The notes under the pieces were generated by a model. It was given only the letters and a program-made list of their open reading frames with translations, did no database searches and was not told the origin of the DNA. A DNA stretch of 19,117 nucleotides from DATDCY01 sp031406795 [NCBI: Candidatus Rokuibacteriota bacterium]. GTDB taxonomy: Bacteria; JAUVQV01. Location of the stretch: contig JANOHV010000100.1 in assembly GCA_031406795.1 (NCBI GenBank), positions 1 to 19,117 of the forward strand. Direction: 5' to 3'. The position numbers and the translations under genes were made by a program. Within the stretch, counting starts at the first letter, position 1; the number at the start of each line of letters is the position of its first letter. Positions 2,192-18,949 of this stretch are shown here, one piece after another.

Positions 2192-3577
2192 ATGGACGCT
2201 GAGGGAATTGGTATTTCGAGGCGCGATTTCATCCGGATCGTCGGAACGGCGGCGGTGGCGAGCCAATTGCCGGTCACCGGGGCGCGCGGCCAGGAGGGTC
2301 GACCCGCCGACATCGAGCCGGGCGACCGGGTCTTCATCGCCAACGAGGACTCGAACACGATCAGCGTAATCGACCCGGCGCGCAACGCGATCGAGACGAC
2401 CATCAACCTGACGAGCTTCGACGAGGATCCGCGCCCGCCCTTCCGGCTCGTCACGGGCGGCGTCGCCCCGACGCACGCCGCGCTCATCCACAAGCCGCTC
2501 TACCACGGGTGCGTCGACGCGCATGGGGTCGTCCCCTCGCCGGACGGCCGGATGCTCGCCACCTCCGGACGCGGGTCGAGCAACGTCTACCTCATCGACA
2601 CCGTCGCGCGGAAGGTCATCGGGAACACTCCGAATCCCTTCGCCTCGGCGACGACGAACGCCGAGCGGATCTCCAGCGGCGTCCTCGTCGGTCGCGAGCC
2701 CCACGAGCCGACCTTCACCCGCAACGGCCGCGAACTCTGGGTCGCCGTCCGTGGCGAGGACCGCATAGCGATTTTCGACACGGCGCTGGCCGTTGCCGGG
2801 GCGGGTGGCGCTCCCGGCAGGGCGCTGCTGCGCACGCTGCCCACGGTGAACGGCCCCGCGCAGGTCTGGTTCGACCGGGCGGGGACACTCGCCTTCGTGG
2901 TGAGCCAGAAGGTGCCGCGCGTGCAGGTCTTTGCCGTCAACCCCGACGCGGAGGGACACTCGCGCCCCGAGCCGGTCGCCACGATCGACGTCTCGGCTCA
3001 GGATGCACCGGGTTTCACACCCTTCGAGAAGAGTTCCCCTGATGGCTCCGAGATCTGGTTCTCGCACAAGCTCGCGGACGCCGTCTCGGCCCGCTCCACC
3101 GCAGCGCCGTTCGGGCTCCTCGACACGATCGCCCTCGGGGAGAAGGCCCGGCCGAACCATCTGGAGTTCGTCGAGAACGCGCGGGGTCGCGTGGTCTATG
3201 TGAGCTTAGCGCGGGTGGACGACGACGGGCCGGGCGGGGTCGCCGCGAGTCGAATCGCCGTCATCGACCGGTCCGCCGCACCCGGGGCGCGCCGGGTCGT
3301 CGGCACGTTCTTCTCGGGCGGCCGCGAGGCGCACGGTCTCTGGACCAACCCCGCGAACACGCTCCTCTACGTGGCGCACGAGCAGGACGAGCTGCCCGGC
3401 ACGCCGAACGCCGGCCAGACCGTCGCGAGCGCCTTCGACGTCTCGGACCCGTTCGCGCCGCGCTTCATCGCCCAGATCCCGCTCGGCAACCTCCTGCTGC
3501 CCTCGGGCGAACTACGCAACAAGAAGAGCATCAACCTCGTATACGTGCGCCCCGGCTACCGGGGCCAGACGGCATGA
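2192..3577 (+). CDS. Tat-exported YVTN-type beta-propeller protein
   Basis: A 461-residue protein. Residues 9-18 are a twin-arginine motif (SRRDFIRIVG) followed by a hydrophobic stretch to about residue 25 and GARGQ, so export through Tat is likely; Tat substrates are often folded or cofactor-bearing. From residue 45 the sequence has repeated blade motifs of the YVTN/surface-layer propeller type, such as VFIANEDSNTISVID, SSNVYLIDTVARKVIG, RELWVAVRGEDRIAIFD and TLLYVAHEQ. The family includes YncE-like and nitrite-reductase d1-like folds, but I see no haem-d1 motifs and cannot assign a ligand. GGGGAGG six bases upstream supports the start. A DUF305 gene follows after 10 bases, suggesting a two-gene unit. 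The composition is much more GC-rich than the genes to the left. Confidence 0.85.
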   Translation: MDAEGIGISRRDFIRIVGTAAVASQLPVTGARGQEGRPADIEPGDRVFIANEDSNTISVIDPARNAIETTINLTSFDEDPRPPFRLVTGGVAPTHAALIHKPLYHGCVDAHGVVPSPDGRMLATSGRGSSNVYLIDTVARKVIGNTPNPFASATTNAERISSGVLVGREPHEPTFTRNGRELWVAVRGEDRIAIFDTALAVAGAGGAPGRALLRTLPTVNGPAQVWFDRAGTLAFVVSQKVPRVQVFAVNPDAEGHSRPEPVATIDVSAQDAPGFTPFEKSSPDGSEIWFSHKLADAVSARSTAAPFGLLDTIALGEKARPNHLEFVENARGRVVYVSLARVDDDGPGGVAASRIAVIDRSAAPGARRVVGTFFSGGREAHGLWTNPANTLLYVAHEQDELPGTPNAGQTVASAFDVSDPFAPRFIAQIPLGNLLLPSGELRNKKSINLVYVRPGYRGQTA

Positions 3578-3587
3578 GGTCCGGGCC

Positions 3588-3929
3588 ATGAACGACCGGA
3601 TCGCGCCCGACCGTTTCGCCGTGGAGATGGGGGCGGGCATGGAGCGCATGATGCGCGCGATGCACGCCAGCGCCCCGACCGGCGACCCTGACGCAGATTT
3701 CCTCGCGATGATGATCCCCCACCACGAGGGGGCGGTCGAGATGGCGCGGCTCGAGCTCGTCCACGGCCGCGACCCGCTCGTGCGGCAGCTTGCCGAGGGG
3801 ATCATCGCGAGCCAGCGGACCGAGATCGAAGCGATGCGGGCACGGCTCGAGATCCTGCGGCACCGGGGCGCCGCCGCAGAACCGGAGTTCCCCGCCCTCG
3901 GCGGGACGCGCGGGCCAGCGGCGCGATGA
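3588..3929 (+). CDS. DUF305 family protein (CopM-like)
   Basis: A 113-residue, mostly helical protein. The DUF305 signature is clear at about residues 35-51: DADFLAMMIPHHEGAVEMA, followed by VRQLAEGIIASQRTEIEAMR. The paired His and the Met residues of the MMxxHH motif are the presumed metal ligands. Family members such as cyanobacterial CopM bind copper and help copper tolerance. Most are exported or membrane-anchored, but this one has no signal peptide in the visible start, so either it is cytoplasmic or the true partner supplies localisation. It starts 10 bases after the propeller stop and is likely co-transcribed with it. It converges with the minus-strand DUF1566 gene, ending 18 bases from it. 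No strong terminator is visible in that gap. Confidence 0.85.
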   Translation: MNDRIAPDRFAVEMGAGMERMMRAMHASAPTGDPDADFLAMMIPHHEGAVEMARLELVHGRDPLVRQLAEGIIASQRTEIEAMRARLEILRHRGAAAEPEFPALGGTRGPAAR

Positions 3930-3947: not shown

Positions 3948-4976
3948 TTAGCTTCCCGCGGCAAGGAACGCCGCGTCCCTGACGGGCCAGACCCGGAAGT
4001 GCCGACCGCTCTTCTGGCCCACCCCGATCGCCCCTTTCGCCATGTAGAGCGCCCAGGCCCAGTCCGGCTCGAAGACACTCGTTGTCGATGACCAGTACCC
4101 CTCGCCGACACCGCGGAACGGGTGCAGTACCGGCAGCGCGGGGGAGTGCCGGTCGCAGTCAACAAGAGATTCAAGCTCGTTGATGTTCGGCAAGCGCCAG
4201 CCCTCCCGCGACCCCGTGGTGTGGTTGAGGGTCCGGACCGCTTCGAGCCCTTCCTCCCACGTCACCGGCCCGGCGCAGAGATCGGCCTCGCTCTTCCAGC
4301 AAAGTCCGGTCAGGAGATCGAGAATCCCTTCCTCCGCGGTGCGAAATCGGGGATCGGGCCAGGGACGGCCCATGCGGAACTCGCCGTCCTGTCCGGTCCC
4401 CCTGCAGGGCGCTTCCGCGCCGGCCTCGTCAAAGCAGCGCCGCTGTCCGGTCCGCAGGCAGACTTCGGTCTCGCCGCATACCGGCCAGAGCAGGGCGAAG
4501 CGCTGCTTCTCGCCGTAGAACATCCTTGCGCCCGCAAGGTGCACATACCAGGCGAACGCCGGATTGATTGCCGCCGAGGTCGAGGTCCAGTACCAACCCT
4601 GGAAGAGGTTTCGGAAAGGATGGCCCGCCGGAAGAGCCGGACGCGCCTCCTGGTGACTGAGCAGGCTGCGCAACTCGCGCCGGTTCGGCACTCGCCAATC
4701 GCGGTGGCCGAAAGCGCTCTTGCGGTTCATCGCAGCTATCGCCTCGAACGCCTCGTTCCAGCCGATGGGGAACTCCATCGGATTGGCGTCGATCATCCAG
4801 ATCAAGCCAGTCAGGCGGTCCGTCGCGACTCCCCCAGCGACGGAAAAGCGCGGTTCGGGCCAGGGACGGCCTTTCGTGTGCTCCGCGTCTTGGGAACTCC
4901 CGGTGCACTGAATTACGCGTCCGTCAACGCCGTAACAGCGAAACTGACCGGTTCGGAGCAGGCGTTCGTCAGTCAT
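3948..4976 (-). CDS. Double DUF1566 (Lcl C-terminal-like) protein, copy A
   Basis: A 342-residue protein of two DUF1566-type domains produced by internal duplication with a period of about 166 residues. Repeat 1 shows RTGQ (8-11), GRPWP (36-40), LTGLIW (55-60), DWRVPNRREL (93-102), YWTST (129-133) and LLWPV (162-166). Repeat 2 shows RTGQ (175-178), GRPWP (203-207), LTGLCW (222-227), GWRLPNINEL (259-268), YWSST (294-298) and RVWPV (328-332). The LTGLxW / DWRxPNxxEL / YWSST order is the DUF1566 hallmark; the fold resembles C-type-lectin-like or sulfatase-modifying-factor-like domains in known members. There is no signal peptide and no membrane segment. It starts 10 bases after the pentahaem cytochrome stop, so it is probably the last gene of that operon. 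It is about 80% identical by eye to copy B at 12165-13223. Function unknown. Confidence 0.85.
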   Translation of the reverse strand: MTDERLLRTGQFRCYGVDGRVIQCTGSSQDAEHTKGRPWPEPRFSVAGGVATDRLTGLIWMIDANPMEFPIGWNEAFEAIAAMNRKSAFGHRDWRVPNRRELRSLLSHQEARPALPAGHPFRNLFQGWYWTSTSAAINPAFAWYVHLAGARMFYGEKQRFALLWPVCGETEVCLRTGQRRCFDEAGAEAPCRGTGQDGEFRMGRPWPDPRFRTAEEGILDLLTGLCWKSEADLCAGPVTWEEGLEAVRTLNHTTGSREGWRLPNINELESLVDCDRHSPALPVLHPFRGVGEGYWSSTTSVFEPDWAWALYMAKGAIGVGQKSGRHFRVWPVRDAAFLAAGS

Positions 4977-4986
4977 CTGGCTGACT

Positions 4987-6156
4987 TCAGTTCAGTGGAA
5001 TCGTCTCCCGGTAGATTGGATACGCGATCGGCTCGCTGTTCTCGTAACCTATTCGCTTGCGCCTTTTCTCGTCTAGCAGGTGATACGTGACCGTAACTTC
5101 GAGTCTCACGGGCGGGTTTTTGCCCTGCCGGCTGAACTCGAAGGAAAACACCCTCGTCTTCCCCTTGGGCAAACGGGTGTCCCTCAGGTCGACGATGAAA
5201 GGTCTCCACATGATGTACCGTTTCATAAGGAATGTCTCGTGCTTGATGGTATTTCCACCCCGGTCGAGCAGCCTCAGATCGAGGCTGAGATGACGATCCG
5301 GCGTGCCAGTTGGGAGATAGTGGGCAGCCCCGGCATTCGTCAGGCTGATGATATATTTCACCCTGGCGCCGCCGAGTTCTTCAGTCTTGTAACCGACCTC
5401 GAGCGCGCTCTTCACCATTTCCGGAACGTGGCCGCCCTGGAAGAGATGTCTTCTCCCTCTCCGCACCACACCCCCACTTGCGATGGGACGACTGACCGGC
5501 GGCATGTGACAACCGATGCAATCCGGCCTCTGGCCGCTTTCGCTGATCTCGGCCACGGTGCCGCAGGGAGGAACCCGATAAAAGACATCCCATCGTCTGT
5601 TCGTGGCGATGTGACACCGCGCGCAGGGACCGATTCCTGAAACCATGTCCGGGTCAACCGCCACGGGATGAGGTGCCTCGGCGGACGCGAAAGGTCCCAC
5701 GATTTTCCCATCCCTCACATGACAGACCGCGCAGGTGACCCCCTCCTCCCGCAGAGTCGGGTCATAGGCTGGGTTGGGCTTGAGGAGCGGCTTGAATTTC
5801 TCGCGATCCTGGAAACCGAGAACGAGGTTCTCCTGCTGGTTCTCCAGTGGTGTATGACAATTCAGGCAGATCTGCTGCGAACCATCGAACTGGAAATCCA
5901 CCTGGAAGTAGGGATCCCGCCACGCGCGGGCGTGCATGCTCTCCGCCCATTCCCGGTAGATATCCTCATGGCATTCACGGCATTCGCCGGCGCTGACCGT
6001 CTTCAGCCCCTCAGGTATGACAACGGCCATCGGTCTTTCAAACCTGTCATCGACCACGAAGATATTGAGCGGTCTGACTATGCGCCAAAGGAAGAAGGTT
6101 GAAAACAGAACGAGAACAGCGATCCAGAGTACCCGCTTCCGTTTTCTACCACCCAT
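4987..6156 (-). CDS. Membrane-anchored pentahaem c-type cytochrome (cytochrome c554-like)
   Basis: A 389-residue protein with one N-terminal membrane segment (about residues 8-24, uncleaved signal anchor after a KRKR stretch) and a periplasmic multihaem part. Five canonical CXXCH haem sites are at residues 59-63, 97-101, 142-146, 178-182 and 213-217. The opening SAGECRECHEDIYREW and the CIGCHMPP ending recall cytochrome c554-type and related multihaem families. Residues about 250-389 lack haem motifs and look beta-rich (VKYIISLTNAGAAHYLPTG, VFSFEFSRQG), like a domain often attached to these cytochromes. It probably passes electrons in the periplasm; its redox partner is not evident. It starts three bases after the stop of the upstream cytochrome and is followed by DUF1566 copy A after 10 bases, all in one likely operon. 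Confidence 0.87.
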   Translation of the reverse strand: MGGRKRKRVLWIAVLVLFSTFFLWRIVRPLNIFVVDDRFERPMAVVIPEGLKTVSAGECRECHEDIYREWAESMHARAWRDPYFQVDFQFDGSQQICLNCHTPLENQQENLVLGFQDREKFKPLLKPNPAYDPTLREEGVTCAVCHVRDGKIVGPFASAEAPHPVAVDPDMVSGIGPCARCHIATNRRWDVFYRVPPCGTVAEISESGQRPDCIGCHMPPVSRPIASGGVVRRGRRHLFQGGHVPEMVKSALEVGYKTEELGGARVKYIISLTNAGAAHYLPTGTPDRHLSLDLRLLDRGGNTIKHETFLMKRYIMWRPFIVDLRDTRLPKGKTRVFSFEFSRQGKNPPVRLEVTVTYHLLDEKRRKRIGYENSEPIAYPIYRETIPLN

Positions 6157-6159
6157 GGC

Positions 6160-7140
6160 TCAGGTCTTCAGAATTCCAAGCTCCACGATGATGACGGTGG
6201 CGATCTGCACAAGCCAGAAGAGGAACAGCCCGAAACCGAGGCGCGTTCCGGCAATGTTCCACCCAACCTTCAAGAACCGCACCGCCAGGATCTTGCCGGC
6301 ATAGAGAGCAAAGCCGATCAGGCCGTTGACGGGATGCAGCAGGAACCATCCCAGATTCGAGAGCTTGCCCAGGTTGTCGAGCGGCGTGTGGATGAAGACG
6401 CAAAGAAGAGCATCGAAGCAGAAGACGGCGAAACTCACCCATGCTGCGTGGCGGTGCACGCTGATCATCGTCTGGACTTCCGCGAAAGGACGGATCCAAC
6501 CCTTGGCGGCGGCCGCCGAGAGAAATGCTAGCAGGGCGAACAGCCCCCCGCCGATCGCCAAAATCAACTGCAGACGCATGATCTTCACGTTTGTTGTCGC
6601 CCGCAGGCGATGGACCACCGATCCGTACGCTTCGGCCCACTGTCGACTTCTGAAAACGTCATGGCACGGCATACAGACGTAGTCCACCGTGAGGAAGCCG
6701 GGGTTGTAGCTTGCGCCACCTGTTGTCCGCTTCGGAATTTCCGCGTGAGGCCTGATAACGAAGAGGTGACTCCGCACGTCACCGTGCAGGGAGTCGGGCC
6801 GCGATTTGGCGAGCAGTCCGGCCGGGGGCATGTGACAATCGATGGACCCGACGCGGGCATTCGCCATCAGACTTTCTTGATAGACTTTGGCGACCCCGGG
6901 ATGGCAGGAAGCGCAAGTGCGCCGCTGGGATCCTTCCCCGCTACGGTGGGGATTGTGACAACCCGTGCAGCCAAGCCCCTTCATTTTGCTTTTCTCGAGC
7001 TGGTTCGCCTCGGTATAGGGCGCGAGGAAGTCACCGACGAGCGGGATCCCTTCCTTCGACTCCTGGCGGTGGCAGGAGGCACAGCCGTCGGGTCGGGTGA
7101 CGTATGTCCTGGCGCAGGCTCGAACGTGCGTGCCGGGCAC
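6160..7140 (-). CDS. Multihaem cytochrome with four-helix membrane tail, 3' part of a frameshifted gene
   Basis: This is the downstream part of one multihaem cytochrome whose 5' part is at 7031-7668. Within this reading frame (residue 1 at the GTG at 7138-7140) canonical haem sites are at residues 20-24 (CASCH), 57-61 (the CTGCHNPH motif, near 58-62), 76-80 (CASCH) and 156-160 (CMPCH). A fifth site at 99-103 reads SIDCH, with Ser (TCC) in place of the first Cys. About four hydrophobic helices follow, near 188-212, 232-252, 264-285 and 298-322, with several His (such as HRHAAW) that might bind haem b; this is inference. The GTG is unlikely to be a native start, since cytochrome sequence continues upstream in another frame. 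The membrane tail suggests quinone-linked electron transfer. The stop lies three bases before the pentahaem cytochrome start. Confidence 0.8.
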   Translation of the reverse strand: MPGTHVRACARTYVTRPDGCASCHRQESKEGIPLVGDFLAPYTEANQLEKSKMKGLGCTGCHNPHRSGEGSQRRTCASCHPGVAKVYQESLMANARVGSIDCHMPPAGLLAKSRPDSLHGDVRSHLFVIRPHAEIPKRTTGGASYNPGFLTVDYVCMPCHDVFRSRQWAEAYGSVVHRLRATTNVKIMRLQLILAIGGGLFALLAFLSAAAAKGWIRPFAEVQTMISVHRHAAWVSFAVFCFDALLCVFIHTPLDNLGKLSNLGWFLLHPVNGLIGFALYAGKILAVRFLKVGWNIAGTRLGFGLFLFWLVQIATVIIVELGILKT

Positions 7141-7668
7141 CGGGGCCGTGGCAGTGCTCGCACTGCACCCCGTCGAGTCGCCAGGTGCCGACGATCCCGG
7201 GGAGCCCGTCTTGGTGCCCCTCCGCGGCGTATCCCGTCGTATGGCACCGGCCGCAGTCGTAGGGGACTTTTTCCCCGGGCCGGAAGTCCACCCAGTGCCG
7301 GCCCTGGAGGTTGAACTGGTTCGCTCCGGGCCCGGATCCGCTCGACGTCACGAGATAGCCCTGCCGGTCGAGGAAAAGGGCCTTCCAGCGGAAACCGCCG
7401 ACGATGTAGGAGATATCGGCAGTCGTCAATCCCAGCGGAAGGGGGATGTCCCGCGCTTCGATGGCGCCGGGGCGATGCAGGATGCGCGCGTGGCCGGTTG
7501 TGACCAGTGCTCGAAGATCTCCCGGTGACAGGGTGCGCAGCCCGCGGCGCCAACATAATCCGACGCCTTGTCGGAGGCCGCGGAAGCCGGTGCAGCGAGG
7601 GCGAGCAGGAGACACATTCCGGCCAGAATCCATCGCACCGGGCGAAATCCGCACGTTGTTCTGTCCAT
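7031..7668 (-). pseudogene. 5' part of the same multihaem cytochrome, split by two compensating frameshifts
   Basis: The gene starts at 7668 with GAGGAG upstream and a good signal peptide (LAGMCLLLALAAPASA), then a CAPCH haem site at residues 44-48 and REIFEHWSQ. Near 7498 the sense moves to another frame, where TGHARILHRPGAIEARDIP follows naturally; one missing base in CACAAC would explain it. That frame carries WVDFRPGEKVPYDCGRCHTT and VQCEHCHGPGARHA, two more haem sites. Between about 7085 and 7145 one extra base returns the sense to the original frame, which continues as the 3' part at 6160-7140. The rejoined protein would have seven canonical haem sites plus one degenerate one, and about 500 residues. 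The two opposite indels may be assembly or sequencing errors, or true decay; the sequence alone cannot tell. Confidence 0.78.
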
Positions 7669-7730: not shown

Positions 7731-7949
7731 TTACTTCCGTTTCGTCATGACAACGACTCCCAGAATCACCAAGACAACGATGACGATCAGAATCAACCCG
7801 CCGGAGTTCATCCCCCAACCCCAACCGCCGCCCATCATGCCACCACCCTGGCCAGAGCCCATGTTGCCGCCCTGGCCAGTGCCCATCTGGGCGGAGGCAG
7901 GAATCCCGGAAAAGAACAACACCGTCAGCAACAACATCAATCTTTTCAT
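7731..7949 (-). CDS. Small Gly/Met-rich single-span membrane protein
   Basis: A 72-residue protein with a signal peptide (MKRLMLLLTVLFFSGIPASA, cleavage before Q21), a Gly/Met-rich linker (MGTGQGG, NMGSGQGGGMMGGGWGWGM), one hydrophobic helix at about residues 51-68 (GLILIVIVVLVILGVVVM) and a short basic tail (TKRK). The tail probably lies in the cytoplasm. The start at 7949 is chosen because GGAGG lies seven to eight bases upstream; an ATG six codons earlier overlaps that site. I do not recognise a named family. Its place between an outer-membrane protein and a cytochrome, and its Met and Gly content, suggest a metal-related or assembly role, but this is only context. Confidence 0.7.
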   Translation of the reverse strand: MKRLMLLLTVLFFSGIPASAQMGTGQGGNMGSGQGGGMMGGGWGWGMNSGGLILIVIVVLVILGVVVMTKRK

Positions 7950-8003
7950 CTCGTGCCTCCATTTCAACAGCCGCGCCCTGTCCGACCCAGGGCTTCCCGT
8001 GCC

Positions 8004-8024: not shown

Positions 8025-8774
8025 CTACAACCAGCGAACGACCCCGAGGAATACCCCGAAGGCCGGTCCGCCGTCGTTCAAGCCGATGGTCATGCCTCCG
8101 GTGAGAGCGTAATCCTTGCTGAGGAGATGAAACGCCCCGAGACTCGCCTCGAGCGGGTCCTTGGCATTTGAAACAGTCGCTCCCCGGCCTTCCAGCGATA
8201 CAAAGACGTTCGTCATGCCGAAGACTTTCGAGACGCCGATGCCGGCGAGCGGGATGTCATCGTATGAGGTGCCGGAGGGATCGCCGGTGACGATATACCC
8301 CCCCGTCAAAGAGAACTTCAGACCCCTGAGACGCTGGTGGAAGCCGGCGAAGACTCCGTAATCCGTCTGGCCGGTGCCAAGACCATTCGCCTCATCGGCT
8401 GTTGGCAGTTTCACCGCCGCAGAGCCGCTGACGGAAAACCCGCCGCGGGACTCCGACAGCAGGACCGCTCCGGCCCGCACAACGACATCCCCCAAACCGG
8501 TTTCCGTGGCGCTTGAGCCACCGGTCTTCTGCGTGAGGGAAAGCAGCGGCGTGGTAACGCTTGCGCTGTACCGCGGCGAGACGTACCCGAGAGTCGGCGA
8601 AAGGGAGATGAGGCTGGATGTCGTCGGGGTGCCGAAATCGCCGGTCTTGTATCCGGCGTCGAGCTCCAGATAGCCGCGGCCATCCAGAGCCCGAGCCGCA
8701 CCAGGTGAGAGAATCCCAAAGAGCACGAAAACAACCGCAGAGACCGCCAGGACTCCTCTCGCCAGGGGAACCAT
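8025..8774 (-). CDS. Outer-membrane beta-barrel protein
   Basis: A 249-residue protein with a signal peptide (LAVSAVVFVLFGILSPGAARA) and then alternating strands typical of an outer-membrane barrel: GYLELDAGYKTGDFG, LSPTLGYVSPRYSASVTTPL, GLGDVVVRAGAVL, FSVSGSAAVKLPT, TDYGVFAGFHQRL, FSLTGGYIVTGD, TNVFVSLEGRG, YALTGGMTIGLNDGG and FGVFLGVVRWL at the end. The GLGDV and VKLPT motifs recall the MetA-pathway phenol-degradation and similar transporter-like barrels; the substrate cannot be read. It begins directly at the stop of the Met-rich gene (TAATG overlap), so the two are translationally coupled. This pairing suggests an envelope copper-handling unit, by context only. Confidence 0.72.
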   Translation of the reverse strand: MVPLARGVLAVSAVVFVLFGILSPGAARALDGRGYLELDAGYKTGDFGTPTTSSLISLSPTLGYVSPRYSASVTTPLLSLTQKTGGSSATETGLGDVVVRAGAVLLSESRGGFSVSGSAAVKLPTADEANGLGTGQTDYGVFAGFHQRLRGLKFSLTGGYIVTGDPSGTSYDDIPLAGIGVSKVFGMTNVFVSLEGRGATVSNAKDPLEASLGAFHLLSKDYALTGGMTIGLNDGGPAFGVFLGVVRWL

Positions 8775-9270: not shown

Positions 9271-9299
9271 ACTTTATCCGGCCTCCTTTCTCTGGTCAA
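9271..9299 (-). promoter_or_regulatory. Candidate sigma-70 promoter for the Met-rich protein/barrel genes
   Basis: On the minus strand TTGACC (9294-9299, five of six) is followed by a 17-base spacer and TAAAGT (9271-9276, four of six). It overlaps the end of the copper ATPase gene and lies 62 bases before the start at 9208. This would give the downstream genes an internal promoter within the copper block. Confidence 0.5.
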
Positions 9300-11563
9300 A
9301 CCCGCGCCCGACGCAGCCGCAAGGCGTTGCCGATCACCGACACCGAGCTGAGGCTCATCGCCGCGGCGGCGATCATCGGACTCAGCAGCATGCCGGAGAA
9401 GGGATAGAGCACCCCGGCCGCGATCGGCACGCCCAGCACGTTGTAGATGAAAGCGAAAAAGAGATTCAGTCTGATGTTCGCCATAGTCGCCCGGCTCAGT
9501 CGTCGCGCCCGCACGATGCCGCGCAGGTCGCCTTTGACGAGGGTCACGCCGGCGCTTTCCATCGCCACGTCGGTTCCCGTGCCCATGGCGATGCCGACCT
9601 GTGCCTGCGCCAGGGCGGGCGCGTCGTTGATGCCGTCGCCGGCCATCGCGACGACCTTGCCCGCCGCCTGCAGATTCTTCACCGCCTCGGCCTTCTGATC
9701 CGGGAGCACCTCGGCCAGCACTTCGTCGATGCCGAGCTTCTTCGCGACCGCCTCCGCCGTCACCCGGTTGTCGCCGGTCAGCATGACGATGCGTATCCCC
9801 TCGTCATGGAGTTGCCGGATCGCCTCCGGGGTGGTCTCCTTGATCGGGTCGGACACCGCCAGCAGGCCGGCGACCTTGCCGTCAACGGCTACGAACATGA
9901 CGGTTTGCCCCTCCGCCCGGAGTACTTCCGCCTGCTCGGCTAGCCCGCCGGGGGCGATCTGAAACTGTTCCAGGAGTTTGGCGTTGCCCAGAAGCACCGT
10001 GCGCCCGTCGACCATGCCGGCGACGCCCTTGCCGGTGTGGGAGACGAATTCGACGACCTCGCCCGTACCCGCGCCGCGCTCGCTCGCTCCGGCGACGATG
10101 GCGCTGGCGAGGGGATGCTCGCTGCCCTTCTCGACGCTCGCCGCAAGCCGCAGGAGGGTCGCCTCGTCCATGCCTGCCGACGTCACGACCTGCGTCACCT
10201 TCGGTTTGCCCTCGGTGAGGGTGCCCGTCTTGTCCACCACCAGGGTGTCGACCTTGCGCAGCGTCTCGATGGCCTCGGCGTTCCTGAAGAGCACCCCCAG
10301 CGTCGCGCCCTTGCCCGTTGCGACCATGATCGACATCGGCGTGGCGAGTCCCAGGGCGCAGGGGCAGGCGATGATCAGCACCGAGACCGCGGTGATCGAG
10401 GCGTAGGCCAGTCGCGGCTCGGGTCCCACGAAATACCAGACGAGAAAGGAGAGAGCGGCGATCGCAATCACGATCGGCACGAAATACCCCGAGACGACGT
10501 CGGCCAGCCTCTGGATGGGTGCGCGGCTGCGCTGGGCTGCTGCCACCATCTGGACGATCCGCGCCAGCAGGGTCTCGGCGCCGACCTTTTCCGCTTTCAT
10601 GACGAGGGTGCCGTTGGCGTTTACCGTGGCGCCGACCACTTTGTCGCCGGCGTGTTTCTCTACCGGGATCGGTTCGCCGGAAATCATGGACTCATCGATG
10701 CTGCTGGCCCCCTCGAGCACCTCGCCGTCCACGGGCACCTTCTCCCCGGGCCGGATCCGGAGCCGGTCGCCGACCTGCACGTGCTCGAGCGGGATGTCGG
10801 CCTCCTCGCCATTGTCGGAGAGTTTCCTCGCGGTCTTGGGCGCGAGCCCGAGCAGGGCCTTGATCGCGGCGCCTGTTCTGCTGCGCGCCCGCAGTTCCAG
10901 GACCTGGCCGAGCAAGATCAGCGTGACGATCACCGCCGCCGCCTCGAAATAACCGGGCACCAGGCCCGTGTGGGTACGCATGGCAACCGGGTACAGACCC
11001 GGCGCGAGGAGTGCCACCAGACTGTAGAGATAGGCGACGGAAACGCCGAGCGCGATCAGCGTGAACATGTTGAGGCTGCGATTGGCGACCGACTGGACAC
11101 CCCTGGCGAAGAACGGCCACCCTGCCCACACAACGACCGGCGTCGCCAGAATAAACTCCAGCCAGCCGAGGATCCCGCCGCCCACGACGGACTCGAGGGA
11201 GCGACCGCCGGGAATCATGCCGCGCATTGCGATCGCGACGAGAGGGACCGTGAGCACGGCACCGACGATGAAGCGCCGGCGCATGTCGCGATACTCCGCG
11301 TCTTCCTCAATCCCCTCCGCCGTTGCGCCCCGGGGTTCCAATGCCATCCCGCACTTCGGGCAGATCCCCGGCGCGGGCTGCACCACTTCCGGGTGCATCG
11401 GACAGACGTACTCCGTCCGCTGGGGGGTGGCCGGAGCCGGTTCTTTCGGCTCGAGGGCCATCCCGCACTTCGGACAGATGCCCGGCCCGTCCTGAACGAC
11501 CTCCGGGTGCATGGGGCAGGTGAACTGCCGAGGAGCTATCGTCGTTCGCCGCTCGCTCGTCAT
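9296..11563 (-). CDS. copA: Cu(I)-exporting P1B-type ATPase with two N-terminal heavy-metal-binding modules
   Basis: A 755-residue P1B-1 ATPase that moves Cu(I) (or Ag(I)) out of the cytoplasm using ATP. All key motifs are present: CPC in helix 6 (400-402), the phosphorylation site DKTGTLTEG (Asp444), SGEP of the actuator domain (295-298), SEHPLA (481-486), GDGINDAP (642-649), and the Cu(I)-specific YN (707-708) and MSLSS (736-740). The N-terminus has no HMA domain. It has two tandem modules of the type CPMHPEV...[12 protein letters not shown] (residues 16-39 and 54-77), a heavy-metal-binding domain with Cys and His ligands that often replaces HMA in such pumps. It starts 18 bases after the small His/Met protein stop, so both share the promoter region at 11841-11909. 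No strong Shine-Dalgarno precedes the ATG. Confidence 0.95.
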
Positions 11564-11581: not shown

Positions 11582-11794
11582 CTAGTGATGCTGCTCATGC
11601 TCGGAGTTTGGCTGTGGCGCGGCGCCGGCCGGCGGTGCTGCCGCTGCCGACGGTGCGCTCTCGCTCATCCCCTGCCGGGCCTCGGGCGGGGACGGCGCGT
11701 CGCTGCCACTCATTCCCGTGCCCATCATTTGCGCCGACGCAACGCCGGGCGCCGCCAAGAGGACAACAACTGCTGCGAGCACATACCGTTTCAT
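11582..11794 (-). CDS. Small secreted His/Met/Pro/Ala protein upstream of the copper ATPase
   Basis: A 70-residue protein with a signal peptide (MKRYVLAAVVVLLAAPGVASA, cleavage before Q22) and a short, probably disordered tail: MMGTGMSGSD near the front, a Pro/Ala stretch, and NSEHEQHH at the end. The Met pair and the His-rich tail could bind copper. GGGGGA about seven bases upstream decides the start at 11794; an ATG 11 codons earlier lacks such a site. I do not recognise a family. As first gene of the copper operon it probably acts in the periplasm with the pump, by context only. Confidence 0.65.
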   Translation of the reverse strand: MKRYVLAAVVVLLAAPGVASAQMMGTGMSGSDAPSPPEARQGMSESAPSAAAAPPAGAAPQPNSEHEQHH

Positions 11795-11840
11795 CTCTAT
11801 CCCCCTTGTTGTCAGGGAAGACGGCACCCTACGTCTCTAA

Positions 11841-11856
11841 GGCATCAACTGTGCCA
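11841..11856 (-). promoter_or_regulatory. Candidate sigma-54 promoter for the copper operon
   Basis: On the minus strand TGGCACAGTTGATGCC matches the sigma-54 pattern: a perfect TGGCAC at -24, exactly ten bases between GG and GC, and ATGCC against TTGCW at -12. The expected start of transcription near 11830 leaves a leader of about 35 bases that contains the GGGGGA ribosome site. An NtrC-type regulator is encoded just upstream, which makes this more than a chance match. Confidence 0.5.
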
Positions 11857-11880
11857 TTGCCTGATCCGGATGAGGCGCGC

Positions 11881-11909
11881 ACTACACAACTGCTTGATAA
11901 GCTTTGCAA
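11881..11909 (-). promoter_or_regulatory. Candidate sigma-70 promoter for the copper operon
   Basis: On the minus strand TTGCAA (11904-11909, four of six) is followed by 17 bases and TGTAGT (11881-11886, four of six), 87 bases before the start at 11794. The spacer holds the GCTT-GAT-AAGC inverted repeat. It could give basal expression next to a sigma-54 promoter, or be a chance match. Confidence 0.3.
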
Positions 11910-11957
11910 TATTCAGTGCGGCCACAGGGAAAACCAGGGGGAAGCTCGGGCTCCACA

Positions 11958-11972
11958 GTCACATTTTGAGAC
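11958..11972. promoter_or_regulatory. Imperfect dyad, possible enhancer site for the NtrC-type regulator
   Basis: GTCACATTTTGAGAC reads as GTC-x-CA-TTT-TG-x-GAC, with one mismatched pair on each arm around the centre. It is about 100-115 bases upstream of the sigma-54-like element, the usual distance for enhancer-binding regulators. Only one copy is seen, while these regulators often use two, so this is weak. Confidence 0.25.
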
Positions 11973-12164
11973 GCTTGATCGGGTCCACCGCGTTTCAGAA
12001 TTTCCGAATCGGGGCCGGAATTCACAAGAAATTATTGGCATTCTTTCTGGGCGGCGTCGTCGAACCCGGGAATAGTTGTCTCGTAATTGAATTTCGGCTC
12101 ATTTGACACAACTGCACTCGCTGCAACCCCGGTCGCACAATGCCTCACGTCAGCGAACGCCCGA

Positions 12165-13223
12165 CTACGACGCGAGATCGTCGGGATCTCGCGCAGGCAA
12201 CGACGCCGCATCCTTGACCGGCCAGACGCGGAAGTACCTGCCCCCCTTTTGACCCACCCCGATCGCCCCTTTCGCCAGGTAGAGCGCCCAGGCCCAGTCC
12301 GGTTCGAAGACGCTCGTCGTCGACGACCAGTATTCCTCGTCGACACTGCGGAACGGGTGCGGCGCCGGCAGGGCGGGAGAGTGGCGGGCGCAGTCCACCA
12401 GGGATTCAAGTTCGTTGATGTTCGGTAGTCGCCAACCTTCGGACGTTCCAGCGTTGCGGTTGAGGGTCCTGACCGCCTCAAGCGCCTCCGCCCAAATGAC
12501 CGGCCCGCCGCAGAGGTCGGCATCACGCCTCCAGCAAAGCCCGGTCAGCAAATCGATGACCCCGTCCTCCGAAGTGCGGAATCTGGGATCGGGCCAGGGG
12601 CGCCCCAGGCGCAGTTCGCCGTCTTGTCCGGTCCTCTGGCAGGGCACCTCCGCACCCGACTCGTCGAAGCAGTGCTCTTGTCCGGTCCGCAAGACGACTT
12701 CCGTCTGGCCGCAAACCGGCCAGAGCAGGGCGAAGCGCTGCTTGTGCCCGTAGAACATCCGTGCTCCCGCGAGGTGCACATACCAGGCGAATGCCGGACT
12801 GATCGCCGCCGTGGTCGAGGTCCAATACCAACCCTGGAAAAGGTTGCGGAAGGGATGCCCCGCCGGAAGGGCCGGACGCGACTCCTGGTGACTGAGCAAG
12901 CTGCGCAACTCGCGCCGGTTCGGCACTCGCCAGTCGCGGCGGCCGAAAGCGGCATCCCGGTTCATCGCGGCTGTCGTCTCGAACGCTTCGTGCCAGCCGA
13001 CGGGATACTGTGCCGGATTGGCATCTCCAGACCAGGTTAGGCCGGTCAGGCAGTCCGTCACGACCTCCCCGTCCACGACAAAGCGGGGTTCGGGCCAGGG
13101 CCGGCCGATCAGAAGCTCAGCGTCCTGAGCGCTGCCGGGGCAGGAAATCTCCCGCCCGCCCGGGCTGTAACAGCGGAGCTGCCCCGTGCGGAGCAGGCAC
13201 TGAGGGTCCTGGGATACCTTCAC
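12165..13223 (-). CDS. Double DUF1566 (Lcl C-terminal-like) protein, copy B
   Basis: A 352-residue paralogue of copy A, about 80% identical by eye along its length. It has the same internal duplication: two units with RTGQ, GRPWPxPRF, LTGLxW, DWRVPNRREL or GWRLPNINEL, YWTST or YWSST, and a WPV end. The differences are spread evenly, with the middle of each unit most conserved (for example SLLSHQESRPALPAGHPFRN, nearly unchanged in A). It has no signal peptide or membrane segment. The GTG start (13221-13223) overlaps the TGA of the response regulator gene by four bases (GTGA), so it is translationally coupled to the two-component system. It ends a three-gene operon and is followed by the copper operon control region. 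Function unknown; a signalling accessory is one possibility. Confidence 0.85.
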   Translation of the reverse strand: MKVSQDPQCLLRTGQLRCYSPGGREISCPGSAQDAELLIGRPWPEPRFVVDGEVVTDCLTGLTWSGDANPAQYPVGWHEAFETTAAMNRDAAFGRRDWRVPNRRELRSLLSHQESRPALPAGHPFRNLFQGWYWTSTTAAISPAFAWYVHLAGARMFYGHKQRFALLWPVCGQTEVVLRTGQEHCFDESGAEVPCQRTGQDGELRLGRPWPDPRFRTSEDGVIDLLTGLCWRRDADLCGGPVIWAEALEAVRTLNRNAGTSEGWRLPNINELESLVDCARHSPALPAPHPFRSVDEEYWSSTTSVFEPDWAWALYLAKGAIGVGQKGGRYFRVWPVKDAASLPARDPDDLAS

Positions 13224-14611
13224 GACTGAACTGTTTCGGGTGGCTTTCGCGGCAGCGAGAATTTCTCCATCCGATAAAGAAGCAGGTGTCGGGGTACCTT
13301 GAGCAGCTGCGCGGCGCGGCTCTGGTTCCAGCCACTCCTGCGCAGCGCTTCCAGGACGATAGCCTTCTCGGCCTCCTCCAGCGACAACCCCTCCTCGGGA
13401 AACGTGAACGAGAAACCCGAAGTGTCCTGTCCGGTCCCGGATGGGCGCGGGGCGCGGATCTTCTCCGGCAGGTCTTCGAGGCGGATGACGTCGGCATCGC
13501 CGAGCACGAGCAGGCGCTCGACGTTGTTCTCGAGCTCGCGCACGTTGCCCTTCCAGGGGTGGCGCTTGAGGGCGTCCATCGCCTCTCGGCTCACCGTGAC
13601 CTTCCGGTCCCCGCCGAGCGTCCGCAGGAAATGCGCGACAAGCAGCGGTATGTCCTCGGGGCGCTCTCGCAGGCTCGGCAGGTGGATCGGCACCACGGCC
13701 AGCCGATAGAAGAGGTCCTCGCGGAACCGCCCCTCGGCGACGTCGCCCTCGAGGTCGCGGTTGGTGGCGGCGATCACCCGGGCCTCGAAGCGCAGTGCGC
13801 CGTTGCCGCCCACCGGCGTGAACTCCCGCTCCTGCAGCGCGCGCAGCAGTTTTGCCTGCAGCTCGACGGGCAGGTCCGCGATCTCGTCGAGCAACAGGGT
13901 GCCGCTCCCGGCCTCTTCGAAGCGCCCCATCTTGTCGCGCACGGCGCCGGTGAAGGCGCCTTTTTTGTGGCCGAACAGCTCGCTCTCGAGAAGCTCGCGC
14001 GGAATCGCGGCGCAGTTGACGGCCACGAACGGCTTGTCGGCCCGCAGGCTCCGGTAGTGAATGGCCTTGGCGACGAGTTCCTTGCCGGTGCCGCTCTCCC
14101 CGGTGATCAGCACCGAGGCGTCGGAGTCGGCCACTTTCTCGATCACCCTGAACACCTGCTGCAGCAGCGGCGAGTCGCCGACGATGTTCCCGAGACCGTA
14201 CTTCTTCTCGACCTCGCGCCGCAGACGCGCGTTGTCGTGCTCCAGGCTCTTGAGCCGCAGCGCCTTGCGGACGGCGAGCGAGAGTTCGTCGCGGTTGAAC
14301 GGCTTGGCGACGTACTCGAAGGCGCCGGCTTTCATCGCCTCGACGGCCATCGCGATCGTGCCGAAGGCGGTGATGACGATGACCTGGGTCTCGGGGGAGG
14401 CCTGTCGCACGCGCCGCAGCAGGTCCATGCCGTCCATCCCCGGCATCTTGATGTCGGTGATCAGCAGGTCGACGCGCTCGGCGCCCAGCAGCGCGAGCGC
14501 CTTCTCGCCGGAGTCCGCGGTGAGGACGGCGTAGCCCTCCTTGGCGAGGTTGTACTCCAGCACCCGTCGCAGGCTCGCGTCGTCGTCGACAACCAGGATT
14601 CGTTCAGTCAT
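13220..14611 (-). CDS. NtrC-family sigma-54-dependent response regulator
   Basis: A 463-residue three-domain transcription activator. The receiver domain has the acid pair at Asp10/Asp11, the phosphoryl site Asp53 (LLITDIKMPGMDG), Thr81 and Lys103. The central AAA+ domain has Walker A GESGTGKE (171-178), the sigma-54 contact loop GAFTGA (218-223), Walker B LLLDEIADLP (Asp242/Glu243), ATNRD (282-286) and FREDLFYRL. The C-terminal Fis-type helix-turn-helix lies at about 414-452 (AIVLEALRRSGWNQSRAAQLL). It is typical in length for AtoC/ZraR-like regulators. It overlaps the kinase gene by eight bases upstream and the DUF1566 gene by four bases downstream. By location, the copper operon with its sigma-54-like element is the best target candidate; the stimulus is not known. 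Confidence 0.95.
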   Translation of the reverse strand: MTERILVVDDDASLRRVLEYNLAKEGYAVLTADSGEKALALLGAERVDLLITDIKMPGMDGMDLLRRVRQASPETQVIVITAFGTIAMAVEAMKAGAFEYVAKPFNRDELSLAVRKALRLKSLEHDNARLRREVEKKYGLGNIVGDSPLLQQVFRVIEKVADSDASVLITGESGTGKELVAKAIHYRSLRADKPFVAVNCAAIPRELLESELFGHKKGAFTGAVRDKMGRFEEAGSGTLLLDEIADLPVELQAKLLRALQEREFTPVGGNGALRFEARVIAATNRDLEGDVAEGRFREDLFYRLAVVPIHLPSLRERPEDIPLLVAHFLRTLGGDRKVTVSREAMDALKRHPWKGNVRELENNVERLLVLGDADVIRLEDLPEKIRAPRPSGTGQDTSGFSFTFPEEGLSLEEAEKAIVLEALRRSGWNQSRAAQLLKVPRHLLLYRMEKFSLPRKPPETVQS

Positions 14612-15800
14612 GCGGCCTCACCTCCGTGTCCGCGCCGGCCGCCGGGAGCGAGAGCGTGAACCGCGCGCCGCCGCCCGGCCGGTTTTCCGCCCTGAGGGCG
14701 CCCCCGTGAGCCTCCGCGATGCGCAGGCTGATGGCGAGCCCGAGCCCGGTCCCCTCGGGCCTCGTGGTGTAGAAGGGCAGGAAGACCTTCGCCAGGTCCG
14801 TCTCGGGGATGCCCGGTCCCTCGTCGTCGACGACGACCTCGACCAGGCGTCCTTCAACGTCGCGGTACTCGAGGCCCTTGACCAACCCGACACGCACGGC
14901 GCCGCTCACGCTGATCCCGCCCCCGGGCTCAGTCGCCTGCGCCGCGTTCAGCAGCAGGTTCAGCAGGACCTGCTTGAGCTGCACCGGATTCCCCCGGACG
15001 GGCAGCGGCGCGCCGATCGCCGTGGTCAGCCGCACGCCCCGCCGCGCAGTCTGGACGCCGACCAGCGCGGCCGTCTGCCGGGCCAGTTCCCCGAGGTCGA
15101 AATACGCCGTCGCCCCTTCCGCCGCCTTCGACCGCGCCAGGCCGAGGTACTCCTCGACGACCTTGTTCAGCCGGTCGGTCTCCTTGAGCAGGATCTCGAA
15201 GAACTCCGCTTTCGGGGAGTTCGCCGGGAAATCCTCCTTAAGTATTTCGACGGTCCCCCTGATCGACGAAAGCGGGTTGCGGATCTCGTGCGTGATCGTC
15301 GCGGCGAGTTCGCCCACGGCGGCGAGCCGGTCGGCGCGGCGCATCTGGCCCTCGATCTCCAGGATCATGTCGGCCTGGCGCCGCAGTTCCTGGTAGGAGT
15401 CCTCAAGTTGCCCCGCGATCTGCTCGCTCCGCAGACGGTACCGGCGTTCCCGGCCGGCGAAGTGGCCGATGAGCGTGGAGAACGCGAAGTACTGCGCGAT
15501 CTCCATGAACTGGTTCGCGATTTCGCGACCCATGTGCTGCCAGTGCAGCAGGATGTGGGGGGCATAGAGCACCGCCACCGCCGCCGAGGCGACCACGCCG
15601 CCGCGCACCCCGAACCAGACGGCGGCCAACCCCACCGGGATGTAATAGAGTCGCCGGTAGAAATCGTGGAGCAGCGGGATCGAGGTGACGGTCGCGTAAT
15701 GCAGTGCGGAAACCCCGAGCACGAGTAGGACGACGGTCACGATCTGGCGTCGCGCATTCCCGGTGCCGCTGGCGGCAGGCAGGCTCTGCTCGAGCGTCAT
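14604..15800 (-). CDS. Membrane histidine kinase partner of the NtrC-type regulator
   Basis: A 398-residue kinase. The N-terminal third holds several hydrophobic segments, about 20-38, 52-64, 66-82 and 100-114, with almost no periplasmic loop, so it probably senses within or at the membrane. A coiled-coil-like linker (about 117-155) leads to the phospho-acceptor helix AATITHEIRNPLSSI with His171. The ATP-binding domain has the N box (LLNLLLNAAQA, Asn281/Asn285), G1 DDEGPGIP (325-332), the F box VFLPFYTT (339-346) and G2 GTGLGLA (350-356). No PAS domain is seen. The stop overlaps the regulator start by eight bases. No clear ribosome site precedes the ATG, and TATAGT ends only six bases before it, so a short or absent leader is possible but unproven. 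Confidence 0.93.
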   Translation of the reverse strand: MTLEQSLPAASGTGNARRQIVTVVLLVLGVSALHYATVTSIPLLHDFYRRLYYIPVGLAAVWFGVRGGVVASAAVAVLYAPHILLHWQHMGREIANQFMEIAQYFAFSTLIGHFAGRERRYRLRSEQIAGQLEDSYQELRRQADMILEIEGQMRRADRLAAVGELAATITHEIRNPLSSIRGTVEILKEDFPANSPKAEFFEILLKETDRLNKVVEEYLGLARSKAAEGATAYFDLGELARQTAALVGVQTARRGVRLTTAIGAPLPVRGNPVQLKQVLLNLLLNAAQATEPGGGISVSGAVRVGLVKGLEYRDVEGRLVEVVVDDEGPGIPETDLAKVFLPFYTTRPEGTGLGLAISLRIAEAHGGALRAENRPGGGARFTLSLPAAGADTEVRPHD

Positions 15801-17509: not shown

Positions 17510-18949
17510 ATGGCGACCATCGACCTGAGCCTGATCTCGCACACGAACATCGGCAAGACGACGCTCGCCCGCACGCTGTTGCGCCGCGACATCGGCGAGA
17601 TCCGCGACGGCGCCCACGTCACCGACGCGGCCACCGGCTACACGCTGATCGAATCGCCCGAGGGCGACACGCTGCGGCTCTGGGACACCCCGGGGTTCGG
17701 CGACAGCGCGCGCCTGCTCCGGCGGCTGAACCAGAGCGGCAACCCGCTCGGCTGGTTGCTGGCTCAGGTCTGGGACCGCTACGTTGACCGGCCGTTCTTC
17801 AGCAGCCAGCTGGCGGCGCGCAACGTTCGCGACGTGGCCGACGTCGTGCTCTATCTCGTGAATGCGGCGGAGGACCCGGCGGGCTCCGGCTATCTGGACC
17901 CGGAAATGCAGGTCCTCGGCTGGACGGGCAAGCCGGTTCTCGTCCTGTTGAATCAACTCGGTCCGCCGCGCCCGGCCGAGCAGGAGCGCGCCGAGCTCGA
18001 GCGCTGGGCCGCCCATCTGCGCGGCTACCCGTGGGTGCGCGGCGCGCTGGCGTTCGATGCCTTCGCGCGCTGCTGGGTCAAGGAGCACGCGCTGCTCGAG
18101 CACATCGCCGCCGCGCTGCCCGAGGGCGCCCGCGAGACGTTCGCGCGGCTCGGCGCAGCCTGGCGCGCCCGCAACGAAGAGGTGTTCCGACGCTCGGTCG
18201 ACCTGCTGGCGACGGAACTTGCCGCGGTCGCCGGCGACGGCGAGGAGGTCGCGACACCGACGCTCGGCGCGACGGCCCGGGCCTGGCTCGCCGGCTTTGT
18301 CCGCGGGGAAAGCGCCGGCTCCGGCGCCGGCATTGCTGCGGCAATGCAGGCGCTCGCCGGGCGCGCCGATGCGCGCATCCGCCTGGCGACCGACGGGCTG
18401 ATCGCCCTGCACGGGCTCGCGGGCAGTGCCGCCGCGCAGATCCGCGCGCGCGTCGCGACGGACTTCGTCGTCGATGCCGCCGCCGACGCCGGCAAGGCCG
18501 GGGTGATCGGCGCCGCCGTCTCCGGCGCTCTCGGCGGGCTGGCAGCGGACCTTGCCGCGGGCGGCCTGACGTTCGGCGCCGGCGCGCTGATCGGCGGCCT
18601 CCTCGGTATCGCCGGCGCGCGCGGTCTCGCGCAGGCCTACAACCTGATGCGCGGCGCGGACACTTCGACCGTCCGCTGGAGCGACGGCGTGCGATCGAAG
18701 CTCGTCGCCGCGGCCGGCCTGCGCTACCTCGCCGTCGCGCACTTCGGGCGCGGGCGCGGCGATTATGTCGAGAGCGAATACCCGGCGCACTGGCGCCCCG
18801 GGGTCGAGGCCGCGGTCGGCGCGGAGTCGGCGGCGCTCGCGGCGATCTGGGCGGCTGCGGATCGCGGCGAAGCGCCCGAGCAGCTCGCGCAGCCGTTGCG
18901 CGCGGTCGTCGAACGGGTGCTGCGCTCGCTGCTGGCGAATCTCTCCTGA
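17510..18949 (+). CDS. DUF3482 family GTPase
   Basis: A 479-residue protein with an N-terminal small GTPase-like domain and a C-terminal DUF3482 region. The P-loop is SHTNIGKTTL (residues 10-19, Lys16), G3 is DTPGFGD (59-65), and the G4 position reads NQLG (148-151) instead of NKxD, which is common in this family but may weaken guanine specificity. Middle helices carry QVWDRYVDRPFFSSQLAARN. The later part has a long Gly/Ala-rich hydrophobic stretch (such as GALGGLAADLAAGGLTFGAG), which may touch or insert into membranes. With the DUF2868 membrane protein ending exactly one base before its ATG, the two probably form a membrane-bound GTPase pair. Function unknown; membrane remodelling or transport are guesses from analogy to other such GTPases. 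Confidence 0.88.
   Translation: MATIDLSLISHTNIGKTTLARTLLRRDIGEIRDGAHVTDAATGYTLIESPEGDTLRLWDTPGFGDSARLLRRLNQSGNPLGWLLAQVWDRYVDRPFFSSQLAARNVRDVADVVLYLVNAAEDPAGSGYLDPEMQVLGWTGKPVLVLLNQLGPPRPAEQERAELERWAAHLRGYPWVRGALAFDAFARCWVKEHALLEHIAAALPEGARETFARLGAAWRARNEEVFRRSVDLLATELAAVAGDGEEVATPTLGATARAWLAGFVRGESAGSGAGIAAAMQALAGRADARIRLATDGLIALHGLAGSAAAQIRARVATDFVVDAAADAGKAGVIGAAVSGALGGLAADLAAGGLTFGAGALIGGLLGIAGARGLAQAYNLMRGADTSTVRWSDGVRSKLVAAAGLRYLAVAHFGRGRGDYVESEYPAHWRPGVEAAVGAESAALAAIWAAADRGEAPEQLAQPLRAVVERVLRSLLANLS

Follow-up and report, generated by a model that had tools for sequence, protein, structure and literature searches.

Accounts of copper defence in Gram-negative bacteria usually centre on CueR, CsoR and CopRS/CusRS, the last being two-component systems whose OmpR-type regulator works with sigma-70. 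ZraSR of Escherichia coli is a sigma-54-dependent, NtrC-type pair of the metal and envelope responses, with a metal-linked secreted target. The available part of PMC12316311 presents ZraR as such a sigma-54 metal/envelope regulator. According to the available text of PMC3707914, Myxococcus xanthus possesses CorSR, composed of a HisKA kinase and the sigma-54-dependent regulator CorR; the nine-gene curA operon encodes both of them as well as CopA, a cytochrome, a secreted His-rich protein and lipoproteins of the PQQ_2 and DUF305 types. In the same text, putative sigma-54 promoters are given for the curA system, deletion of corSR abolishes most of the copper induction of copA, and the residual induction requires the ECF factor CorE.

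In this work, we analysed a 19,117-nt stretch of DNA (hereafter the window) in which a kinase-regulator pair lies beside a run of copper and cytochrome genes (Table 1). The kinase, regulator and DUF1566 genes follow one another in that order on the minus strand, with overlapping ends. The first-pass annotation had described them as an operon for a membrane kinase, an NtrC-type activator with GAFTGA and a DUF1566 protein, and the Pfam domains bear this out: the receiver (PF00072), Sigma54_activat (PF00158) and Fis-type HTH (PF02954) domains of the regulator all score above cut-off, and its GAFTGA loop is intact. Neither protein could be assigned to ZraSR, as both fell far below the cut-offs of the equivalog models NF007688/NF007689 (185.8 vs 479 for ZraS and 383.8 vs 760 for ZraR); the best NCBIfam models, AtoS (205.3 vs 646) and AtoC (499.9 vs 714), likewise remained below cut-off. 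The DUF1566 protein gave an AlphaFold model with a mean pLDDT of 46, which was set aside, and a sequence search returned no PDB relative at E<=1.

Table 1. Window positions of the predicted genes and sites discussed in the text
Positions	Strand	Feature	Basis
14604-15800	-	Sensor histidine kinase, 398 aa	Pfam HisKA and HATPase_c; hydropathy
13220-14611	-	NtrC-type sigma-54-dependent response regulator, 463 aa	Pfam
12165-13223	-	Two-domain Lcl_C (PF07603)/DUF1566 protein, last gene of the regulatory operon	Pfam
11907-11914	-	GAATATTG, one mismatch away from the GAATATTC dyad of pPRO1; weak candidate for an activator site	pPRO1 matrix
11859-11876		Palindrome of 18 nt (one mismatch) adjoining the -24 element	Inverted-repeat search and own scan
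11841-11857	-	Putative sigma-54-type promoter ATGGCACAGTTGATGCC (-24 GG, -12 GC)	Consensus scoring, shuffles
11582-11794	-	Secreted-looking protein of 70 aa that contains Met and His; its gene opens the copper operon	ORF listing, hydropathy
9296-11563	-	Copper-type P1B ATPase (CopA) with two N-terminal HMBD domains	Pfam; NCBIfam TIGR01511
8774-9220	-	Secreted-looking protein, 148 aa, about 23% Met	ORF listing; without Pfam match
8025-8774	-	Outer-membrane-type protein (Phenol_MetA_deg, PF13557)	Pfam
7731-7967	-	Small Met-containing membrane protein, 78 aa	ORF listing, hydropathy
6160-7668	-	Multihaem cytochrome with membrane part, in two reading frames	Domain scan; frames by eye
4987-6156	-	Multihaem cytochrome with five CXXCH and an N-terminal hydrophobic stretch	Pfam, hydropathy
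3948-4976	-	Second two-domain Lcl_C/DUF1566 protein, 78% identical to that at 12165-13223	Pfam, alignment

Downstream of the regulatory operon, a gap of 370 nt (54% GC) precedes the copper run, in which the intergenic gaps between 11582 and 3948 measure at most 75 nt according to the ORF listing. The ATPase passes the copper model TIGR01511 (610 bits, cut-off 397) and likewise the cadmium model TIGR01512 (416 bits, cut-off 313.5), and fails the stricter CopA equivalog NF007952 (699 vs 1316). The cytochrome encoded in two frames contains two compensating frame changes, as judged by eye, i.e. an assembly error or a decayed gene. On the plus strand, a short ORF at 1781-2188 resembles by eye the C-terminal portion of an RND pump of the CusA/CzcA type and is perhaps a remnant; it is followed at 2192-3929 by a tandem pair of genes, for a beta-propeller and a DUF305 protein, whose orientation is convergent to that of the copper operon, an arrangement that recalls the E-F pair of the M. 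xanthus curA operon as it appears in the available part of its description.

Comparison with the available description of CorSR (PMC3707914) reveals both common features and differences. In both systems, a sigma-54 regulator pair is encoded with a copper P1B ATPase. Much of the curA gene list recurs in the window, which has a DUF305 gene, a small secreted-looking Met/His protein, a propeller and cytochromes, the last two being of other families. The window propeller is of the Lactonase type and not PQQ_2, the cytochromes are multihaem proteins in place of a cbb3-type subunit, the DUF305 and propeller genes lie on the opposite strand, and two DUF1566 proteins occur. The multicopper oxidase CuoA of the curA-type cluster has no counterpart, as no multicopper oxidase domain was found among the 18 window ORFs scanned. 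The sensors also differ: CorS carries a signal peptide, one transmembrane segment and a HAMP domain, whereas the window kinase displays several hydrophobic stretches within residues 16-85 and no Pfam match to HAMP. Compared with CopRS/CusRS, the likeness is limited to two-component control of copper genes, the window regulator being NtrC-type. The window system thus probably works like CorSR with a sensor of another type, the likeness being drawn from the description of CorSR and not from sequence identity.

The gap upstream of the copper run contains a promoter-like sequence. The first-pass annotation had placed TGGCACAGTTGATGCC, with TGGCAC and GG-N10-GC spacing, at 11841-11856, and we recovered it there on the minus strand. 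Its extended form, ATGGCACAGTTGATGCC, shows GG-N10-GC at the canonical distance, and 46 nt separate its end from the ATG at 11794. Sites were scored with weights set by hand on the consensus TGGCACGRNNNTTGCW, as quoted in the available part of PMC3707914, for a maximum of 32.5. With 27.0, ATGGCACAGTTGATGCC ranks first on both strands of the window, but narrowly, followed by six sites at 26.5, five of which fall inside predicted genes; one of these, 6338-6354 on the minus strand, lies 181 nt before the cytochrome gene starting at 6156. When the sense strand of the 370-nt gap was subjected to 5000 dinucleotide shuffles, 2.5% of them reached a score of at least 27 anywhere, 0.6% did so no more than 100 nt from the ATG, and 0.08% contained the exact core TGGCAC-N6-TGC. 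This core is found only once in the 19,117 nt, at the gap site; allowing at most one mismatch, four occurrences were observed for 5.4 expected, which is not above chance. The -12 half reads ATGCC and not TTGCW. Upstream of the kinase gene, the best score was 21.0, with no site comparable to ATGGCACAGTTGATGCC. The gap site is good and well placed, though its score on its own would not prove a promoter. A transcription start about 12 nt past the -12 element would lie near 11830; the leader would then measure about 36 nt and include a GGGGGA stretch. The GTG at 11827, taken as start in the ORF listing for the 70-aa protein, would then be too close to serve as a start codon; the ATG at 11794 was assumed here.

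Further insight was gained from plasmid pPRO1 of Pelobacter propionicus, the one plasmid that provided a close comparison. In a search of 72,556 plasmid records, it gave the best match for both the kinase and the regulator among the matches listed, and the two genes are adjacent there (NC_008607.1, 19091-21561) in the same order as in the window. Identity reaches 56% for the regulator and 39% for the kinase, the N-terminal sensor region included; when the first 142 residues of the kinase were used alone, pPRO1 was the only one of the 72,556 records to match at E<=1. The motifs LHY, LHD, RLYY and YAPHI are kept in both sensor regions, and the pPRO1 kinase gives a sub-threshold match to DUF4118 (19.7 bits, cut-off 28.4). 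Both regulators have an intact GAFTGA loop and the HTH motif PRHxLxYRxEK. The pair is located in a copper and heavy-metal island, after CopA, HMA and ABC genes and before an operon for TolC, an adaptor and CusA/CzcA. These TolC-RND and HMA/ABC neighbours distinguish it from the window, as does the annotation of a 25-kb stretch of pPRO1, in which no DUF1566 gene appears.

The island also displays a recurrent palindrome, GAATATTC. At three places ahead of metal genes it forms tandem pairs with a spacing of 20-21 nt, and one of these pairs includes a copy with a mismatch; such tandem dyads are not a feature of the window. The scan covered 200,000 of the 202,397 nt of pPRO1, as four pieces. GAATATTC is the commonest of the 64 palindromes of its G+C, with 17 copies, including 7 in the island, a count that is not an independent test since the motif was picked after inspection of the island; the 63 others have at most 8 copies in all and at most 2 in the island each. 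Eight sigma-54 sites score at least 28 on pPRO1, the five best at 31.0, 29.5, 29.0, 28.5 and 28.5. GAATATTC is located within 150 nt upstream of three of the eight, i.e. 40 nt from the 31.0 site, 56 nt from the 29.5 site and 89 and 109 nt from one 28.5 site, and the other five are without it. Two of the 63 control palindromes lie within this distance of one such site each, and the remainder of none. For nine copies of GAATATTC, the 150 nt downstream contain no sigma-54 score of at least 25. The 31.0 and 29.5 sites, which resemble the G. sulfurreducens RpoN consensus TTGGCACGGTTTTTGCT published in PMC2725144 (available part), precede genes for related Met/His-rich secreted proteins (60% identical), so that sigma-54-type sites stand before proteins of this kind on pPRO1 as in the window. 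As promoters of paralogues, the two may have arisen by copying from a single ancestral promoter. The third site (28.5) lies 275 nt before an HMA gene, with TTGA replacing TTGC. A weaker one (26.0), with GAATATTC 110 nt upstream, precedes the gene of a Cys-containing secreted protein, and the TolC operon has the clearest dyads with a weak promoter (25.0, GTGT replacing TTGC).

As the window and pPRO1 regulators share the HTH motif, a related binding site is expected in the window. An imperfect dyad had been annotated about 100 bases further up than the promoter; nothing stands out there, either in an inverted-repeat search, which listed five pairs of 11-14 nt (82-91% complementary) in 11790-12170, or in our own palindrome scan of 11830-12165, which only the palindrome at 11859-11876 passed. 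This palindrome could be a site for another regulator. A matrix built from eight pPRO1 sites gave GAATATTG, 49 nt upstream of the promoter, as its top match in the window, with 7.4 bits compared with 17.5-23.0 for the training sites. That score was reached anywhere in 15% of 2000 shuffled gaps and within 150 nt of the promoter in 5.9%, and 212 of 199,924 pPRO1 positions score as high. One-mismatch copies of GAATATTC occur twice in the window, at 2141 and 11907; such a copy turned up in 12.8% of the shuffled gaps. A tandem partner was sought at 18 offsets from 19 to 42 nt, none of which scores above -3.9. Degenerate and single, GAATATTG offers a hint of an activator site.

Taking together the observed gene content and domains, the promoter-like sequence with its position and the related pair on pPRO1, we propose, with a probability of about 0.68, that the kinase acts through the NtrC-type regulator and a sigma-54 promoter on the copper operon from 11794 to 3948. 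For the metal, phosphorylation, binding site, transcription and operon extent, we infer the following. The kinase, at the inner membrane, would sense copper or a related soft metal and phosphorylate the regulator, which would bind upstream of 11841-11857, contact the sigma-54 polymerase held at this site and remodel it. The operon would then be transcribed down to 3948, yielding the secreted Met/His-containing and Met-rich proteins, which may bind copper, the CopA pump, the multihaem cytochromes and the second DUF1566 protein. The link from regulator through sigma-54 to copper operon, already suggested by the first-pass annotation, is well placed and probably right. It is supported independently by pPRO1, where a related pair lies among metal-resistance genes together with strong sigma-54-type sites and recurrent GAATATTC, and it stays a prediction.

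Copper ATPases are commonly under CueR or CsoR, and the genes studied here might be read from a sigma-70-type promoter governed by CueR, CsoR or another regulator encoded elsewhere, with TGGCAC-N6-TGC a chance match and the pair controlling other genes. The chance frequency of one-mismatch sites across the window and the six sites at 26.5 are in keeping with this, as is a CsoR-family gene directly before CopA on pPRO1. We nevertheless consider it unlikely: the exact core is rare in shuffled gaps and stands just before the ATG, a crude scan of the 370-nt gap reported no sigma-70-type site, and no regulator of the kind required was found among the 18 window ORFs scanned. Read-through from the kinase-regulator-DUF1566 operon, which would make a separate promoter unnecessary, appears more improbable still; both gene runs are on one strand and the gap scan reported no terminator-like site on the minus strand, but a gap of 370 nt contrasts with the overlaps of the first operon and the short spacings of the second, and it contains a promoter-like site.

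Alternatively, the wiring may be right and the signal something other than copper. It might be zinc or silver, for instance, or arise from electron transport or the envelope, the main output then being the cytochromes. Searches found no characterised relative of the sensor region, the ATPase passes the cadmium-family cut-off too, the pPRO1 island has a CusA/CzcA-family exporter, and ZraSR provides a sigma-54 metal/envelope pair. However, the copper model scores highest of the metal-specific ATPase subfamilies, and secreted proteins rich in Met fit Cu(I)/Ag(I), so that we regard a non-copper signal as rather improbable.

The route had been annotated as unlike the usual CueR or CopRS systems. 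This claim has to be softened because M. xanthus CorSR is published as controlling copA in this manner (PMC3707914, available part). Sigma-54/NtrC control of copper export being already published, the window is probably a variant with a different sensor. If the window bacterium and a plasmid from the Desulfuromonadales had in common a sigma-54 copper switch with such a sensor, this would speak against the CorSR mode being peculiar to myxobacteria; a link to the cytochromes would connect metal stress to electron transfer. The related pPRO1 system and the candidate activator site are added here and make the hypothesis testable. A broader proposal is conceivable, though we find it doubtful: the window and pPRO1 would represent a distinct, horizontally moving family of sigma-54 metal switches, in which the kinase senses copper within the membrane via its conserved hydrophobic domain, the regulator uses a GAATATTC-type site and copper export is coupled, in the window, to a multihaem-cytochrome electron pathway.

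No publication title on this kinase/regulator pair or on a GAATATTC sigma-54 site was found among the titles listed, and in the available parts of PMC3333781 and PMC2725144 a term search gave no passage on copper or heavy metals. No relatives of the kinase or of the DUF1566 protein were found in viral contigs. Among 398 genomes of one phylum, the regulator has relatives in four (E<=1e-125, 49% identity), a closer one possibly being missed with four candidates scored per genome. In the same set, the kinase has one relative (E<=1e-42), matching over residues 139-388 only, and the GTPase gene at 17510-18949 of the window has relatives in two genomes (E<=1e-70, best identity 48%).

DUF1566 was also considered as a copper marker and rejected, its link to copper genes being loose across nine neighbourhoods. 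In the phylum of a Thiogranum MAG, 57 of 299 genomes match at E<=0.001, and this MAG alone exceeds 47% identity to the query among the matches listed. Within the order and class of the MAG, relatives with 56-62% identity are present in nine genomes, from searches that gave 2 of 20 genomes at E<=1e-50 and 8 of 274 at E<=1e-60, with the Thiogranum MAG in both; the neighbourhoods of all nine were surveyed over stretches of 9.8-19.9 kb. Four of the nine contain no match to any other query. L068 has a 27% kinase match, L064 a CopA match 7 kb from the DUF1566 relative and L063 a partial CopA match 9 kb away; in L062, a pair 38% and 32% identical to that of L002 lies 2.4-4.4 kb away. L002 (7460-10594) belongs to the Thiogranum MAG, where the 62% DUF1566 relative is convergent with an adjoining CopR/CopS-type pair that scores above the cut-offs of TIGR01387 and TIGR01386.
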